Shown piece by piece: positions 13,251 to 62,231 of a DNA stretch of 64,000 nt. Origin of the DNA: Nonomuraea indica (GTDB lineage: Bacteria > Actinomycetota > Actinomycetes > Streptosporangiales > Streptosporangiaceae). Location: positions 124,001 to 188,000 of the forward strand of contig NZ_PJOK01000049.1 of the NCBI RefSeq assembly GCF_002850745.1. The letters are read 5' to 3'. The translations under genes were made by a program, and so were the position numbers. Positions within the stretch are counted from its first letter, which is position 1, and each line of letters opens with the position of its first letter. The notes beneath the pieces were generated by a model. The model did no database searches and was not told where the DNA came from. It was given only the letters and a program-made list of their open reading frames with translations.

Positions 13251-15941
13251 CTACGCCGGGATCTCGCGGCGCAGCGCGCCGGCGTGCTGCAGGTAGTCGA
13301 GCGCCAGACCGGTACGGCCGGCCGTGCGGTGCAGCTCGCCCAGCATCTGGGTGGTGGACGCCTCGCCGCTGCGGTCGCCCAGCTCGCGGAAGACGACCAG
13401 TGACCGTTCCAGGCGCACCGAGGCCCCGGCCAGCTCGCCGCGCGCCACCTGCAGCCCGGCCAGGCTCTGCAGGGCGTAGGCGCCGCAGTGCCGGTCGCCG
13501 AGCGACTCGAAGATGTCCAGCGCGTGCCGGTGGAACCCCATGGCCTGGTGGAGCTGGCCCATCTGCAGGCAGACGCAGCCCTCGCGGTGCGCGTCGCCGA
13601 GCTCCTGGGCCAGCCGCATCGCCTGCCGGAGCGAGGCGTCGGCCTGGGCGTAGTCGCCGGCCTTGAGGCAGACGCGCCCGATGGCCTGCCGGGCGAACGC
13701 CTCGCCCTGGGTGTCGCCCGCGGTGAGGAACATGGCGAGGGCGCGCTTGAAATGGCCGAGCGACTGCTGGTGCCTGCCCCGGAACTGGCTGACCGCGCCG
13801 AGCCCGCAGATGGAGGTGGCCTCGGCGCGCGGGTCGCCGAGGTCGTGGAAGAGCCGGCGAGCCCGGGTGAAGCCCTCCACCGCGTCGTCGTACCGGTCCT
13901 GGTAGAGCGCCACCTGGGCGAGGCCGCGCAGCATGGCGGCCTCGCCGTACGTGTCGCCGGCGGCGCGGGCGGCGTCCAGCGCGACGGTGTGGGTGCGCTT
14001 CCAGGTGTCGAGCAGGCAGTGCAGGTCGAGGTACGGGACCATGGCGGCGGCCAGGCCCCAGGCCGACTCGGCCAGGCCGGCCCCCGCGGCGACGCCGACG
14101 GCGCCGACCAGCGAGTCGTGTTCGGCCTCGAACCAGCCGAGCGGGTCCGAGGTCAGGCGGTCCAGCGTCTGCTCGGGCAACCGCCAGCGCGGCGTGCGGG
14201 GGGCGGTGAGGCTGAAGACGGTGGTGGGCAGTCTGCCCATGGCGTGCTCGGTGGTCGCGGTCCAGGCGGCCAGCACCCGGGCGAGCCCGGCGCGGTCGGG
14301 GCCGCGTGCGAGGGCGTGCCGGCGGATCAGGTCGGGCACCCGGTAGCGCGGCTGTCCGACGGGGTCGGTGCCGACCAGCTCCAGCAGGTTGACGTCCACC
14401 AGGAGGTCGGTCACGTCGTCGGCACGGTGGCGGTCGAGCGCTGCGTCCACCACCCAGCCGGGCTGGGCGAGCGTCCCGAACTGGCCGAACGTGCCGAGCG
14501 TGCGGGCGGCCTCGTCGGTCAGGTGCCGGTAGCTGCGGTCGAGGCTGTCGCGAACCTCGGTGAGCTCGCTGAGCCGGTCGTCCTCCAGCCGCTGCCTCAG
14601 CACGGCGAGGGACCACCCGGGCCGCCCGGCCAGCCGCGCGCCGGCGCTGCGGACGGCCAGCGGCAGCCGTCCGCACGCCTCGACGATGGCCTCGGCGTCC
14701 TCCCGCTCGCGGGCCACCCGGTCGGCGCCGGCGATCCTGGCGAACAGCAGCATCGCGTCGTCCCCGGTCAGCTCGCCGAGGTGGACGTGCACGGCGCCCG
14801 GAAGCTGGGTGATGCGGCGACGGCTGGTGACGATGGCGGCGCTGTCGTTGCCGGGTAACAGCGGGCGCACCTGCGCCGCGTCCAGCGCGTCGTCCAGCAG
14901 GACGAGCATGGGCCGCTCGGCCAGCAGCGACCGGTACAACGCCGAGCGTTCGCGCAGCGTGGGCGGCGGCGTCTCGGCGCCGAGCGCCCGGAGCGCCTCC
15001 GCGAGGACGTCGCCCGGCTCCCGCCCGTCGAGGTCGAGGTAGAGCTGCCCGGCGGGGAAGCGGTCACGCAGGGCGTGCCCGGCGTGTACGGCCAGCGCCG
15101 ACTTGCCGGCTCCCGGCGGACCGGAGATGACCGCGATCTGGAACGGCTCGGCCAGCACGGCGAGGTCGTCGTCCCGGCCGGTGAAGTCGGGCAGGTCGGG
15201 CGGCAGCTGCCGGGGGGCGGCGGGCGGCGGCGCCTCGTCGGCGAGGATGGCCTCGTACGTGGCGCGCAGCTCCGCCCCGGGCTCCACGCCCAGCTCGTCG
15301 ACGAGCTGTTCCCTGATCGTGGCGTAGGCCCGCAGCGCCTCCGCCTTCCGCCCGCCACGGTGCAGGGCGCACATGAGCCGGCCCCACAGGTCCTCGCGGT
15401 AGGGGTGCTCGGTCAGCAGGCCGCGCAGGTCGGTGACGGCGCCCGCGTGGTCGCCGCGGTCCATCCGCTGGTTGATCACCTCCTCGGCGGCCCGGAGGCG
15501 TACCTCGTGGAGGGGTTCGAGGCGGCGGTCCCAGAGGGGGCTGCCGGGCAGGTCGGCCAGCGGGGAGCCCCGCCACAGGGCCAGCGCCTCGGCGAAGTGG
15601 GCCCGTCCGACCAGTTCCTCGAAGACGTGCAGGTCGAGCGCGCCCTCGGGGACGTCGATCGCGTAGCCGGAGCCGTCGCCCCGCAGCAGACCGCCGGCGG
15701 GCTCGCCGGCGCCGCCGAGGTCGGACCTGAGCGAGCTGACGTAGGTGCGCACGTTGGCCTGGGCCGAGCGGGGCGGGCGCTCCGGCCAGAGCACCTCGAC
15801 GAGTTGGTCGGCGCCGACCACCCGGCCCGCGTCCAGCAGCAACGTGGCCAGCAACAGGCGGGGTTTCCTGCCGGAGATCCGGACGGGCTGGCCCGATAAC
15901 CGGACTTCCAGCGGCCCGAGCACATGAAAAGTGACCGTCAT
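13251..15941 (-). CDS. AfsR/SARP-type transcriptional regulator with NB-ARC and TPR domains
   Basis: 896 residues. Residues 1-95 are an OmpR-like winged helix (VLGPLEVRLSGQPVRISGRK, PRLLLATLLLDAGRVV), about 100-245 the bacterial transcriptional activation domain ending GVEPGAELRATYEAIL, then an NB-ARC ATPase with Walker A GPPGAGKSAL, LVLLDDALD (Walker B) and GRLPLAVRSAGARL, and C-terminal TPR-like helices. Such proteins activate secondary metabolism or morphological genes. Start 15941 is chosen because AAAGGAG lies 11 nt upstream and the DNA-binding domain starts at once; an ATG further upstream at 16010 would cross this ribosome site. Divergent from the cell-wall hydrolase operon, which is therefore a candidate target. 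Confidence 0.93.
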   Translation of the reverse strand: MTVTFHVLGPLEVRLSGQPVRISGRKPRLLLATLLLDAGRVVGADQLVEVLWPERPPRSAQANVRTYVSSLRSDLGGAGEPAGGLLRGDGSGYAIDVPEGALDLHVFEELVGRAHFAEALALWRGSPLADLPGSPLWDRRLEPLHEVRLRAAEEVINQRMDRGDHAGAVTDLRGLLTEHPYREDLWGRLMCALHRGGRKAEALRAYATIREQLVDELGVEPGAELRATYEAILADEAPPPAAPRQLPPDLPDFTGRDDDLAVLAEPFQIAVISGPPGAGKSALAVHAGHALRDRFPAGQLYLDLDGREPGDVLAEALRALGAETPPPTLRERSALYRSLLAERPMLVLLDDALDAAQVRPLLPGNDSAAIVTSRRRITQLPGAVHVHLGELTGDDAMLLFARIAGADRVAREREDAEAIVEACGRLPLAVRSAGARLAGRPGWSLAVLRQRLEDDRLSELTEVRDSLDRSYRHLTDEAARTLGTFGQFGTLAQPGWVVDAALDRHRADDVTDLLVDVNLLELVGTDPVGQPRYRVPDLIRRHALARGPDRAGLARVLAAWTATTEHAMGRLPTTVFSLTAPRTPRWRLPEQTLDRLTSDPLGWFEAEHDSLVGAVGVAAGAGLAESAWGLAAAMVPYLDLHCLLDTWKRTHTVALDAARAAGDTYGEAAMLRGLAQVALYQDRYDDAVEGFTRARRLFHDLGDPRAEATSICGLGAVSQFRGRHQQSLGHFKRALAMFLTAGDTQGEAFARQAIGRVCLKAGDYAQADASLRQAMRLAQELGDAHREGCVCLQMGQLHQAMGFHRHALDIFESLGDRHCGAYALQSLAGLQVARGELAGASVRLERSLVVFRELGDRSGEASTTQMLGELHRTAGRTGLALDYLQHAGALRREIPA

Positions 15942-16054
15942 GACCGCATCTGCTCCTTTTGGAGGCGTGACAGCTCTTTGTATCGGGTCTGGACGTTTCT
16001 TGTGCGCCATATGCAGACCCTTGTCTCAGAGATCCCACGGGAAAGGATCACCAC

Positions 16055-17062
16055 ATGAAGCTCAACGGAGCACTTGTCGCCGGTTGCACACTGTTATTCG
16101 GCCTGGCCACGGCCACGGTCACGGCGACGGCGGCGGCAGCGAACCTCGCGCCGGCCCCCCCCTCCAGCCCCACCGCGAGCCCGGCCCCCACGGCCACCGC
16201 GACGGCGACCCCGACCCCCACGGGCACGGAGTCCCCCGCCCAACTGCTGGCCGCGCCGAACTTCCAGCTTCCGTTCCCCTGTGGCCAGACCTGGAACGGC
16301 AACAACAGCGCCAGCAGCGCGCACAAGGCGTACGAGATCGACTTCAACCGGGGCAGCACGGCCGGCGCCGACCTCGGCGACGCGGTCGTCGCCGCCGCCG
16401 CGGGCACCGTCGGCATCTCCGCCCACCAGGGCAGCGCCAACGGCTTCGGCAACCTCGTGACGATCAACCACGGTGGCGGCTACATCACCTACTACGCCCA
16501 CCTGAACGCCCGCACGGTCTCCGCCGGCCAGACGGTCGCGCAGGGCCAGAAGATCGGCACGGTCGGCAAGACGAGCAGGCCGGGCAACAACATCTCCCCG
16601 CACCTGCACTTCGAGGTGCGCAAGGGCACCGGCTACCCCTCCAACATCCAGCGCGCGGTCTTCGACGGCAAGGCGTTCGCCTACCCCATCGCGAACGTGA
16701 CCTCGAAGAACAAGTGCTCCGGCGGCGCCCCCGCCAACCCGCACACCCCCGAGAAGGTCTGCGGCTCCGGCTACCAGGTGGTCGACTCGCAGGCGCTCGG
16801 CACCGAAGGCCGCGTCTACCTGCTCTACAACGGCGCCACCGGCTACAACTGCGTGACCACCCTGAAGACCACGTCCCTCGGCGCGCAGACCGCGACCGCC
16901 GCCTTCCTGGAGGCGCAGGGCAGCGCCCGTAAGACGGACTCCGGCAACTTCACCTACTATGCCGGGCCCGTCACCGCCAAGGCCCCCGGCAAGTGCGTGA
17001 AGTGGGGCGGCAAGGCCGGCTCCGCCACCTACACCAGCCCCTTCGAGCATTGCGGATCATGA
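16055..17062 (+). CDS. secreted M23 family metallopeptidase with SapA-like C-terminal domain
   Basis: 335 residues. Signal peptide (MKLNGALVAGCTLLFGLATA), a Pro/Thr/Ala linker, then a LytM/M23 domain (about 75-210) with the zinc residues: HKAYEIDF (His and Asp) and HLHFE. It should cleave peptidoglycan cross-bridges outside the cell. From about residue 228 a Cys-containing domain follows (NPHTPEKVCGSGYQVVDSQA ... CVKWGGKAG ... SPFEHCGS) that resembles spore-associated protein A of Streptomyces. The same domain ends the next gene. GGAAAGG lies upstream of the ATG at 16055. Stop overlaps the next start (ATGA). Confidence 0.93.
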   Translation: MKLNGALVAGCTLLFGLATATVTATAAAANLAPAPPSSPTASPAPTATATATPTPTGTESPAQLLAAPNFQLPFPCGQTWNGNNSASSAHKAYEIDFNRGSTAGADLGDAVVAAAAGTVGISAHQGSANGFGNLVTINHGGGYITYYAHLNARTVSAGQTVAQGQKIGTVGKTSRPGNNISPHLHFEVRKGTGYPSNIQRAVFDGKAFAYPIANVTSKNKCSGGAPANPHTPEKVCGSGYQVVDSQALGTEGRVYLLYNGATGYNCVTTLKTTSLGAQTATAAFLEAQGSARKTDSGNFTYYAGPVTAKAPGKCVKWGGKAGSATYTSPFEHCGS

Positions 17063-18507
17063 AACTCAGAACCCTCGCACTCGCCGGGCTGATCGCCGTG
17101 TCCGGCCAGCAGGTGGCGTACGCCGCCACCGTCTCCCCCTCCCCCTCCCCCTCCCCCTCCCGCTCCTCGGCGTCCACCGCGGCCCCGCTGGCTGAGGCCT
17201 TCACCAAGGCCGCCGCGAGCTACGAGGTGCCGCACGACCTGCTGGTCGCCCTGGGCTACGCCGAGACCCACCTCGACGGCCACGGCGGCGAGCCCAGCGC
17301 GAGCGGCGGCTACGGGGTCATGCACCTGGTCAGCAACCCCAGGACGAAGACCCTCGAGGAGGCCGCCAAGCTCACCTCGCGGCCCGTCGCCGAGCTGAAG
17401 TCCGACGACGCGGCCAACGTGCTGGGCGGCGCCGCGGTGCTGCGCGCCCGCGCCGACGCGCTCGGGCTGGACGCGGCCGCGCGCAAGGACCCGGGCAAGT
17501 GGTACGGCGCCGTCGCCGCGTACGGCAACGCCGCCGACGAGAGCACGGCCAAGCTCTACGCCGACGCGGTCTACGAGGCGCTCGCCGCGGGCGTCAGCGC
17601 GGCAGGCGTCCGGACCGCCCCGCGGGCGGTGGAACCGGAGCTCGGCGACTACGCCGACGCCGAGCCCCGCACGCTCGCCGCGGCCACCGACTATCCGGGC
17701 GCGCTCTGGAAGGCGGCGCACAGCACCAACTACGCCGTGTCCAACCGCCCCACCAGCGACAAGATCGACCGGATCGTCATCCACGTGACGCAGGGCTCGT
17801 ACGCCGGCGCGATCTCGTGGTTCCAGACCGGTCCGCGGGCCAACCCGACCTCCGCGCACTACGTGATCCGCTCCTCCGACGGCCAGATCACGCAGATGGT
17901 GCGCGAGAAGAACCGCGCCTTCCACGCGGGCAACTGGAACCGGCGCTCGGTCGGCATCGAGCACGAGGGTTACGTGGACAACGCCTCGTGGTTCACCGAC
18001 CAGATGTACCGCGCCTCGGCCGCGCTCACGCGCAGCATCGCCGACAGGTACGGCATCCCGAAGGACCGCACCCACATCGTGGGCCACCACGGGGTGCCCG
18101 GCGCGGACCACACCGACCCGGGTCCGCACTGGAACTGGACCAAGTACATGGGCTACGTGACGGGTGGGTCGGGCACTCCCACCAACCCGCACACGCCCGA
18201 GAAGGTCTGCGGTTCCGGTTACAAGGTCGTCGACTCGCAGGCACTGGGCACGGCCGGCACGGCGTACCTGCTGTACAACACCTCCACCGGCTACAACTGC
18301 GTGGCCACGCTGAAGAAGACCTCGCTCGGCAAGGCCAGCGCGGCCAGCGCCTTCCTGGAGCCCCAGGGGTCGAGCCGGAAGACCGACTCCGGCAACTTCA
18401 CCTACTACGCGGGCCCCGTCACGGCCAAGGCTCCCGGCAAGTGCGTGAAGTGGGGCGGCTCGGTCGGCTCCGCCACGTACACGAGCCCGTTCGAGCACTG
18501 CGGCTGA
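17059..18507 (+). CDS. secreted N-acetylmuramoyl-L-alanine amidase with SapA-like C-terminal domain
   Basis: 482 residues. Signal peptide ending near QVAYAA, an SP-repeat linker, a helical lysozyme/SLT-like domain (about 45-190: DLLVALGYAETHLDGHGG), an Amidase_2 domain (about 225-370) with IVIHVTQGS, AFHAGNWN and HTDPGPHWNW supplying zinc and catalytic residues, and a SapA-like domain (about 376-482) nearly identical to that of the preceding peptidase. It should cut the glycan-peptide amide bond; the SLT-like part lacks an obvious complete catalytic set and may only bind. Translationally coupled to the M23 gene. Confidence 0.93.
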   Translation: MKLRTLALAGLIAVSGQQVAYAATVSPSPSPSPSRSSASTAAPLAEAFTKAAASYEVPHDLLVALGYAETHLDGHGGEPSASGGYGVMHLVSNPRTKTLEEAAKLTSRPVAELKSDDAANVLGGAAVLRARADALGLDAAARKDPGKWYGAVAAYGNAADESTAKLYADAVYEALAAGVSAAGVRTAPRAVEPELGDYADAEPRTLAAATDYPGALWKAAHSTNYAVSNRPTSDKIDRIVIHVTQGSYAGAISWFQTGPRANPTSAHYVIRSSDGQITQMVREKNRAFHAGNWNRRSVGIEHEGYVDNASWFTDQMYRASAALTRSIADRYGIPKDRTHIVGHHGVPGADHTDPGPHWNWTKYMGYVTGGSGTPTNPHTPEKVCGSGYKVVDSQALGTAGTAYLLYNTSTGYNCVATLKKTSLGKASAASAFLEPQGSSRKTDSGNFTYYAGPVTAKAPGKCVKWGGSVGSATYTSPFEHCG

Positions 18508-18522
18508 TCATCTGACCGCCCG

Positions 18523-18572
18523 AGACGGCCCTGGCGAGCGCCGCCGACATCCGCGGCGCGCCAGGGCCGTCT
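18523..18572 (+). terminator. hairpin after the hydrolase operon
   Basis: A 14-bp perfect stem, AGACGGCCCTGGCG (18523-18536) pairing with 18559-18572. No T tract follows. It lies 16 bp after the amidase stop. Confidence 0.6.
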
Positions 18573-18610
18573 GACGCGCTCGCGCGAAGACGGCGACGCG
18601 CGGCCCGGCG

Positions 18611-18715
18611 CAGCGCTCGCGCAGGCCCGCACAGCGCTCACGGACTCCCGCACAGCGCTCACGGACTCCCGCACAGCGCTCGCGGAGTCCCGCACAGCGC
18701 TCGCGGAGTCCGGCA
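18611..18715. repeat. five tandem copies of a 21-bp unit directly upstream of the DUF2293 gene
   Basis: Units begin CAGCGCTC and follow CAGCGCTCRCGGASTCCCGCA, at 18611, 18632, 18653, 18674 and 18695. The first is more diverged. The array ends 11 bp before the GTG at 18727, so it occupies the promoter and leader position of that gene. Confidence 0.92.
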
Positions 18716-18726
18716 CACTGGAGCGG

Positions 18727-19773
18727 GTGAGCAAGCCGAACCTGGCGCGCAGGGTCGCGGACGCGGCCGAGATCGCGCTGGCCAACCGCAAGTACGTGAC
18801 GTTCATCGACGTGGTGACCGGGCTGCGGTGGCTGCACTCGCGCCACGTCGACACCTGGCGGCAGGGCCGGGCCGCCACCCTGGCCGAGCTGGCGGCGGTC
18901 GACGACGACCGCCTGCTGCAGGCGGCCGCGCTGCTGCGCGACTGGGCCGAGGCCAGGGGGCTGCGGCGGGTGGAGACGCCCTACGTGTCGGGCAGCCGCG
19001 ACCGGCGCGAGCTGCGTTTCACCGCGACGGCGCACCCGCAGGACGGGTTCCGCACGCACTGGCTCTCCCCCGGGCTGAGCGAGGCGCGGGCGCGGCAGCT
19101 CACCGAACGCCAGAGCAAGGCGCCGGACCTGTTCGTGGTGGCGCCGCTGGAGCCGTGGACGTGCGCGTCGTGCGCCGACACCGGACCGTACCTGATCATG
19201 GAGGAGGATCGGCCGCACTGCCTGACCTGCGCCGACATGGACCATCTGGTGTTCCTGCCGTCGGGTGACGCGGCGCTGAGCCGGCGGGCCAAGCAGGAGA
19301 GCGGCCTCGCGGCCGTGGTCGTCCGCTACAACCGGCGGCGCAAGGTCTACCAGCGGCAGGGCCTGCTGGTGGAGGGCCGCGCGCTGGAGGCGGCCGAGGA
19401 GCGCTGCCTCGCCGACGAGGAGGTCCGCCTGCGCCGCCGCGAACGGGACCGGGAGCGCCGGGCGGAGCAGGACGTGGAGTACCAGGAGCGGATGGCGGCC
19501 GAGATCGCCCGCCTCTTCCCCCGCTGCCCGGCCGAACGGGCCGGCGAGATCGCGGCGCACGCCGCCCTGCGCGGCAGCGGCCGGGTCGGCCGGACGGCCG
19601 CGGCCAGGGCGCTCGACGCGAACGCGATCACCCTGGCCGTGGTCGCCTCGATCCGCCACCTGGACACCGACTACGACCGTCTGCTGATGGCCGGCGTCCC
19701 CCGCATGGAGGCCCGCGACCGCATCAGGGAGACGATCGACCGCAAGCTGGCCGAGTTCCGAGGAGAGACATGA
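18727..19773 (+). CDS. DUF2293 domain protein
   Basis: 348 residues. The C-terminal 90 residues (IARLFPRCPAERAGEIAAHA, then DRLLMAGVPRMEARDRIRET) fit DUF2293. Mid-protein there is CASCADTGPYLIMEEDRPHC with CLTC, a probable C4 zinc ribbon, followed by a strongly charged Arg/Glu helix. Function unknown; a nucleic-acid-related role is suggested by the zinc ribbon and basic helix only. GTG start with GGAG close upstream. The next gene overlaps by four bases. Confidence 0.88.
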   Translation: MSKPNLARRVADAAEIALANRKYVTFIDVVTGLRWLHSRHVDTWRQGRAATLAELAAVDDDRLLQAAALLRDWAEARGLRRVETPYVSGSRDRRELRFTATAHPQDGFRTHWLSPGLSEARARQLTERQSKAPDLFVVAPLEPWTCASCADTGPYLIMEEDRPHCLTCADMDHLVFLPSGDAALSRRAKQESGLAAVVVRYNRRRKVYQRQGLLVEGRALEAAEERCLADEEVRLRRRERDRERRAEQDVEYQERMAAEIARLFPRCPAERAGEIAAHAALRGSGRVGRTAAARALDANAITLAVVASIRHLDTDYDRLLMAGVPRMEARDRIRETIDRKLAEFRGET

Positions 19774-61021: not shown

Positions 61022-61177
61022 CGCGCGTCCCGCGTGGAGACGCGCCCAATCCCCGGTGCGGGGAACCGGGGACCCGCCGACGGCGCCCGTGCGCCGTCCG
61101 GGGTGAGTCCGAGCTCCGGCTCGGTAGGGCTGCTCCGGCCCGAACCCGTCAGCTAACCCGGTAGGCGTCGATGAGAG
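61022..61177 (+). promoter_or_regulatory. c-di-AMP riboswitch (ydaO-yuaA class)
   Basis: Conserved blocks in order: GGGGAACCGGGGACCC (61060-61075), GGGGTGAGTCC (61100-61110), GGTAGGGCTGCTC, CCCGAACCCGTCAGCTAACC (61140-61159) and GGTAGGCG. These match the ydaO class that binds c-di-AMP. An outer stem pairs GCGTCCCGCGTGGAGACGCG-type sequences and a variable P arm (GACGGCGCCC/GTGCGCCGTC) lies at about 61077-61098. In actinobacteria these RNAs often precede cell-wall hydrolases and normally turn expression off when c-di-AMP is high. The hydrolase ribosome site starts within a few bases of the end, so control could be at transcription or translation. Confidence 0.92.
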
Positions 61178-61187
61178 GAGCCGATTG

Positions 61188-62231
61188 GTGAAGCGTACGC
61201 GCGGTCGCGAGAGGACCTCAGCGGGCACACACGCCCGCCCTCCGCAACAGACCGGCCCGCGCCGTCTCGCCCTTCTCGGCACCGCCCTCGTCGCCGCCAC
61301 CGCTCTGTTCGCCGGCGCCACCCCTGCCGCGGCCGACCCCGAGCCGTCCCTGAACTCGCTCGCCAAGCAGGTCGAGCAGATGCACGTGGACATCGAGAAG
61401 CTGGCCGAGCAGTACAACGCCCAGCGGGAGAAGCTCAAGTCCGCCAAGAAGACGGCCGAGGCCGCCAGGAAGACGCTGGCCGCCAGCGAGGCCGACCTGG
61501 CGGCCAAGCGCGCCAAGGCCGCCCAGATGGTCGAGAGCCAGTACATCTCCGGCACCATGGGGCGGGCCCTGCCCTTCATCAGCTCCAGCGACCCCGAGCG
61601 GTTCCTCGACCACGCCGCCACCTCGTACGCGCTGGCCCAGCAGCAGAGCGAGCAGCTCAAGCAGGTCCTCGACGCCATGGAGTCGGCCAGGCGGGCCAGG
61701 GACGAGGCCGGTGCCCGCATGGCGGAGGTCAGCAAGCTCGTCGCCGACCTCGGCGCCAAGCGCGACAAGATCGTGACGATGGTCGCCAAGGTCGAGAGCA
61801 ACCTCTACCGGCGCGCGGTCGGCGAGGCCGGCCGGCCGGGCACCAGGGCCACGCGGGTCAGCCTGCCCGTGATCGGCTCCGGCAAGGCCGCCGAGGCCGC
61901 CCGCTGGGCGCTCACGCAGCAGCTCAAGCCGTACGTCTGGGGCGCGGAGGGCCCGAGCTCCTACGACTGCTCGGGCCTGGTCATGGCGGCCTACCAGCGG
62001 GTCGGCATCTCGCTGCCGCACTACACCGGCAGCCAGTGGACCTCCGGCCGGCACATCTCCAAGGAGGAGCTGCGCGCCGGCGACCTGGTGTTCTTCTACA
62101 ACGACCTGCACCACGTCGGCATCTACATCGGCGGCGGGCTGATGGTCCACGCGCCGCGCACGGGTGACGTGGTGCGCGTGGCCTCGATCGCCCGGCGCCC
62201 GTACGCGGGAGCCGTCCGCATCGCCGACTGA
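61188..62231 (+). CDS. secreted NlpC/P60 endopeptidase with coiled-coil domain
   Basis: 347 residues. Signal peptide with a long charged n-region, hydrophobic LALLGTALVAATALFAGA, cleavage near AAADP. About 55-205 is an antiparallel coiled coil (LNSLAKQVEQMHVDIEKLAE), as in RipA-type proteins. The NlpC/P60 domain (about 228-347) has YDCSGLVMAAYQ (Cys), HHVGIYIGGG (His) and HAPRTGDVV. It should cut D-Glu-mDAP bonds in peptidoglycan during growth or division. GTG at 61188 with GAGGAG 7 nt upstream; a TTG directly before it is less likely. Under the c-di-AMP riboswitch. Confidence 0.95.
   Translation: MKRTRGRERTSAGTHARPPQQTGPRRLALLGTALVAATALFAGATPAAADPEPSLNSLAKQVEQMHVDIEKLAEQYNAQREKLKSAKKTAEAARKTLAASEADLAAKRAKAAQMVESQYISGTMGRALPFISSSDPERFLDHAATSYALAQQQSEQLKQVLDAMESARRARDEAGARMAEVSKLVADLGAKRDKIVTMVAKVESNLYRRAVGEAGRPGTRATRVSLPVIGSGKAAEAARWALTQQLKPYVWGAEGPSSYDCSGLVMAAYQRVGISLPHYTGSQWTSGRHISKEELRAGDLVFFYNDLHHVGIYIGGGLMVHAPRTGDVVRVASIARRPYAGAVRIAD

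Follow-up and report, generated by a model that had tools for sequence, protein, structure and literature searches.

A SapA-like domain shared by two wall hydrolases of one operon and by receptor kinases in Nonomuraea indica: a candidate envelope-binding module

Gene organization of the hydrolase locus

The window analysed here comprises 64,000 nucleotides of Nonomuraea indica (contig NZ_PJOK01000049.1, positions 124,001 to 188,000), and contains two overlapping plus-strand genes that encode a secreted M23 peptidase followed by a secreted enzyme with an SLT-like region and an Amidase_2 domain (Table 1). As read from the sequence, both enzymes start with a Sec-type signal peptide, and a wall anchor was seen on neither. 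The stop codon of the M23 gene and the ATG of the amidase gene share the tetranucleotide ATGA, through which the two genes are likely to be translationally coupled; an ATGA or ATGATG overlap was also found in several relatives.

The scores of the catalytic domains, 88.8 bits for Peptidase_M23 (Pfam cut-off, 28.7) and 118.1 bits for Amidase_2 (cut-off, 26), placed them in these two families, the latter being that of N-acetylmuramoyl-L-alanine amidases. The metal-site residues of the M23 domain (D and the YAH / HLH positions) were invariant in 64 of 64 relatives, and the zinc-ligand His/His/Asp of the Amidase_2 domain, plus Glu, were kept in all 47 relatives compared. The N-terminal region of the second enzyme reached 12.8 bits against the SLT model, whose cut-off is 21.3, a score that denotes likeness and not membership; it had no match among PDB sequences, and the catalytic-type Glu of its YAET motif was invariant (46/46 relatives). 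The term amidase, used for this enzyme in a preliminary description of the locus, was therefore correct with regard to the Amidase_2 domain but incomplete, because the SLT-like region is also present. Control of the operon by a riboswitch, as for other wall hydrolases, was rejected (no Rfam match at E ≤ 0.1 within 15700-18800).

Table 1. Coordinates and supporting data of the features at the hydrolase locus and of one related domain copy elsewhere in the genome.
Feature	Position	Strand	Basis
AfsR-like regulator (SARP/STAND): DNA-binding + BTAD + NB-ARC + TPR	13251..15941	-	Pfam BTAD E 1.6e-34, NB-ARC E 2e-8, TPR
Divergent intergenic region	15942..16054	.	aligned block TTTGTAtCgGgTCTGGACG, conserved in 8 relatives
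M23 peptidase with C-terminal SapA-like domain	16055..17062	+	335-aa ORF, Sec-type signal peptide
Peptidase_M23 domain	16343..16627	+	residues 97-191, Pfam E 2.7e-25
SapA-like domain copy 1	16736..17059	+	residues 228-335, 4 invariant Cys, all-beta model pLDDT 96.9
ATGA overlap, M23 stop / amidase ATG	17059..17062	+	sequence
SLT-like + Amidase_2 + SapA-like protein	17059..18507	+	482-aa ORF, secreted
SLT/lysozyme-like region (tentative)	17197..17529	+	residues 47-157, Pfam SLT E 0.087, below cut-off
Amidase_2 domain	17758..18126	+	residues 234-356, Pfam E 4.4e-34
SapA-like domain copy 2	18184..18504	+	residues 376-482, 84% identical to copy 1
SapA-like copy of the genome's own pseudokinase	G000:C2:244712-245029		

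Sequence of the SapA-like domain and its relation to SapA

The last 107-108 residues of the two enzymes were 84% identical at the protein level (82% at the DNA level) and had all four cysteines in common, which bore out the preliminary view that nearly the same domain ends both the M23 peptidase and the amidase of one overlapping operon; the length of 105 residues given there should be read as about 107. A whole-genome search found ten copies with E-values of 1e-70 to 1e-5, which excludes a chance likeness of the two. All ten copies shared the four cysteines, with eleven positions invariant altogether, and the cysteines may form disulfides. Identity to copy 1 ranged widely, from 31 to 84%, so that the enzyme, kinase and free-standing clades described below may not all have the same ligand. 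An artefact of a mis-called frame was ruled out, as both fusions are kept in dozens of genomes, and a phage origin of the lysis genes was likewise rejected, the domain being without a match in 50,697 phage records and giving a PHROG match at chance level only.

At E ≤ 1, none of the ten copies matched a Pfam family, including LysM, SH3b, PG_binding and PASTA; NCBIfam held no model of the domain, and a sequence search of the PDB returned chance matches, none of them convincing. On the other hand, comparison with four Streptomyces entries named 'spore-associated protein' (RefSeq/PLSDB) by hhalign gave a probability of 99.7% (E 4.2e-27, 37% identity, 103 columns). The plasmid-borne entries of this name were 37-39% identical by tblastn, and the profile built from a diverse alignment of the domain matched one 'spore-associated protein' with 91 bits. 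Thus, the proposed relation to SapA held on profile-profile comparison, where membership in the SapA family rests on the database name of these homologues, with which, and not with SCO0409 itself, the comparison was made. The homology covered the mature domain and the cysteine pattern, while the small, free-standing secreted form of SapA is not that of copies 1 and 2, which are C-terminal domains of 335- and 482-residue enzymes. Recent transfer of Streptomyces SapA to the enzymes and kinases was also rejected, since the enzyme, kinase, TM-stalk and most free-standing domains fell in separate groups of the tree.

SapA is SCO0409 of S. coelicolor, a protein described as produced in aerial hyphae and present on the outside of spores (PMC7042404) and assigned to the hydrophobic cover genes, a set with higher expression in sporulating mycelium (PMC3610822); of the family, such a location and expression are known for SCO0409 alone. 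In the open literature searched, SapA was described solely as a protein of the spore surface or one under developmental regulation, with its molecular function not stated.

The two copies of one locus resembled each other more closely than copies taken from separate loci did (0.84 vs 0.77; 0 of 20,000 permutations), and the M23 and amidase copies were not separated in the tree, where 15 label changes were needed; this tree was built on few columns and contains many weak forks. These results suggest gene conversion, which is a simple account of the within-locus likeness, or selection for one shared ligand. Functionally, the likeness may mean that both enzymes have to keep one target.

Distribution and domain context

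The ten copies of this genome, called from the genome search and from loci fetched individually, comprised two M23 fusions, one SLT-Amidase_2 fusion, two Ser/Thr kinase-TM-stalk fusions and five free-standing secreted proteins. Fusions were not called from length alone, as several long open frames proved to be upstream read-through. M23 and SLT-Amidase_2 fusions dominated among close relatives (77 named loci in the public genome set, together with further genomes), and M23 fusions extended to Pseudonocardiaceae, Hamadaea, Promicromonospora and Luteipulveratus; the domain was also found in Nocardia. In a sample of the class, it occurred in 85 of 297 genomes and 23 of 105 genera, and in a sample of the phylum, in 11 of 246. 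In nearly every copy examined, whether attached to M23, SLT-Amidase_2, kinase-TM-stalk or TM-stalk partners or free-standing, the domain was C-terminal and extracytoplasmic.

The preliminary description had suggested that the domain directs enzymes to the spore or hyphal wall. Spore-specific targeting is weakened, since the domain is also present in Nocardia and, as M23 fusions, in Promicromonospora and Luteipulveratus, three genera that are not known to form spores.

Several other arrangements were observed. The copies examined in one family of the class sample (f18) were free-standing, and at two loci (L187 and L190) three free-standing SapA-like genes stood in tandem. In another family of the class sample (f17; L141, L143, L145-L147, L149 and L151), membrane-anchored proteins without a known catalytic domain consisted of a cytoplasmic Pro-rich part, a TM segment, a stalk and the SapA-like domain. 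A free-standing SapA-like protein on a Kitasatospora fiedleri plasmid (L018, 5953-6315) is annotated 'serine/threonine protein kinase', probably by transfer of the name from a kinase-SapA fusion.

Receptor kinases and pseudokinases with a SapA-like ectodomain

Pfam confirmed a Pkinase domain in 5 of 5 long fusions tested, and in nearly all of the 33 kinase fusions a TM segment and a stalk of 85-318 residues rich in Pro, Ser, Thr and Ala separated the kinase from the SapA-like domain. Two classes were distinguished. The active class had the motifs VAVK, HRD-F/L-KP and VIDFG, and in the pseudokinase class HRDxKP was replaced by H-x-G/S-LTP (HRGLTP/HGGLTP) and DFG was absent. The latter class (L154, L163, L170, L197-L208 and L210, some as tandem pairs) was kept across the genus, and both classes are represented once in this genome (L155, active; L154, pseudokinase).

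The order of kinase, TM segment and extracytoplasmic C-terminal module is that of PknB-type PASTA kinases, although here the PASTA repeats are replaced by one beta domain unrelated to them, carried on a long Pro/Thr stalk, and a pseudokinase class exists; separate PASTA proteins are also encoded in this genome. The ectodomain of PknB binds lipid II (PMC6428115), and by analogy the kinases with a SapA-like ectodomain may sense a wall ligand. The fusions would represent a class of sensor domain for actinobacterial Ser/Thr kinases beyond PASTA. The receptor pseudokinases form a conserved family among them, and the domain itself is a family of Pfam size that has been without a model so far.

Predicted structure

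The AlphaFold2 model of the domain, based on 88 aligned domains, consisted of one short helix and eight strands (pLDDT 96.9, pTM 0.90). When this model was searched against the PDB with Foldseek, nothing was found below E 0.001. The best match was marginal, namely CBM56 (5t7a; E 4.6e-3, probability 1.0, TM 0.49/0.54, 10-13% identity), followed by unrelated beta-sandwiches, and CBM56 had no sequence match to the SapA-like domain; the likeness is a lead towards glycan binding and not a family assignment. The viral structure library contained no significant match to the domain model. In the model of the M23-SapA protein the domains were confident and the linker was not (pLDDT <50 at 152-156; pTM 0.56), which agrees with a flexible connection between the two domains, as one would expect of a tethered module.

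Possible function of the SapA-like domain

A C-terminal extracytoplasmic domain joined by a flexible linker to an intact wall hydrolase is the usual layout of a targeting module. LysM, SH3b and PG_binding_1 are terminal non-catalytic modules placed in this way on peptidoglycan hydrolases, from which the SapA-like domain differs in having no sequence match to any wall-binding domain of Pfam. The role in targeting wall enzymes that had been proposed for it is consistent with this layout, but incomplete, because the ectodomains of the kinases and pseudokinases broaden the function to recognition or sensing of a wall ligand. Since the copies are C-terminal and extracytoplasmic, and their partners are wall enzymes or kinases in need of an external ligand, the best common reading, to which we give a probability of roughly 0.6, is that the SapA-like domain is an extracytoplasmic module with a ligand in the actinobacterial envelope, wall glycan or peptidoglycan being the most likely candidate. 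We infer both ligand binding and the kind of ligand from sequence context, and neither fusion to wall enzymes nor position as a kinase ectodomain is enough to identify the ligand.

The module would be portable, disulfide-stabilised and all-beta, and would work outside the membrane. The two copies of the operon would hold the M23 endopeptidase and the SLT-like/amidase enzyme at one common wall target, where bonds of the stem peptide and on the glycan side could be cut together. On its Pro/Thr-rich stalk, the same module may act as the sensory part of the transmembrane Ser/Thr kinases and pseudokinases, and the free-standing SapA proteins, which are homologous, secreted and share the four cysteines but form a separate tree group, may be the unfused binding module. 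A module shared by wall hydrolases, receptor kinases and receptor pseudokinases gives SapA a testable job, namely what the domain binds.

The strongest rival is that the two enzymes are exported as bacteriolytic weapons or scavengers, that the domain aims them at foreign walls (those of other bacteria, or fungal beta-1,3-glucan), and that the AfsR/SARP regulator turns on their genes at the same time as antibiotic production. The secretion of both enzymes with no wall anchor seen is in line with this, as are the divergent SARP gene at 23 of 27 operons, given that SARP regulators mostly control secondary metabolism (PMC10936776), and the nearest fold, CBM56, which is found on a beta-1,3-glucanase (PMC9609564). 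However, the fold match is weak, and the domain is also the ectodomain of the host's own kinases and pseudokinases and occurs as free SapA-type proteins, so that a ligand in the host's own envelope is more likely; we regard action on other organisms as unlikely.

A second alternative is a structural, protein-protein module, which would form a surface coat together with the free-standing SapA-like proteins and recruit the enzymes and kinases to this protein layer, not to a wall polymer. The location of SapA (SCO0409) on the spore outer surface (PMC7042404), its place among the hydrophobic cover genes, whose expression rises in sporulating mycelium (PMC3610822), and the five free-standing copies of this genome are compatible with a coat. 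The enzyme, kinase and free-standing domains, however, lie largely in separate clades, which does not favour one homotypic interface, and lineages not known to form spores also have M23 fusions and free-standing copies; this alternative thus appears quite unlikely. That the domain is a disulfide-bonded C-terminal cap without a ligand, stabilising secreted proteins or restraining the enzyme until cleaved, agrees with the four invariant cysteines, the compact predicted fold and the (nearly) constant C-terminal position, but is very improbable, because a cap is not expected at the end of a kinase stalk of 100-300 residues or as a free-standing protein, and the M23-SapA model (pTM 0.56) gave no sign of fixed docking.

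The upstream AfsR-like regulator

With its DNA-binding and BTAD domains, followed by NB-ARC and TPR, the regulator encoded upstream of the operon belongs to the SARP/AfsR group. The tandem pair of M23-SapA and SLT-amidase-SapA genes was found at 27 loci bearing a name and is conserved in Streptosporangiaceae, and at 23 of these 27 a divergent AfsR-like homologue lay directly upstream. The conserved block of the intergenic region (Table 1) is a candidate site for the regulator. The same region contains TGTATCG-N4-TGGACGT, two heptamers at the 11-bp spacing that is typical of SARP sites, and a sigma-70 promoter scan gave nothing useful. Based on this arrangement, the AfsR-like neighbour may control transcription of the hydrolase operon.

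AfsR is a STAND activator that is phosphorylated by Ser/Thr kinases, and phosphorylation alone is no trigger (PMC10936776). If the domain binds a wall ligand, a closed circuit could be imagined, in which the SapA hydrolases remodel the wall, the ligand that they bind is also perceived by the SapA kinases and the related pseudokinases, and the signal is passed on to the AfsR-like STAND regulator, which in turn controls the operon; we consider this extension improbable.

Other features of the window

A c-di-AMP (ydaO) riboswitch (61033-61182, plus strand, 76.6 bits) lies just upstream of an ORF for an NlpC/P60-type secreted protein (61185-62231), which may be a second wall hydrolase under different control. 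A match to Rfam Sernc350, a Saccharopolyspora sRNA, covered the full 513-position model at 1611-2096 on the minus strand with 94 bits, and is unusually long for an sRNA.
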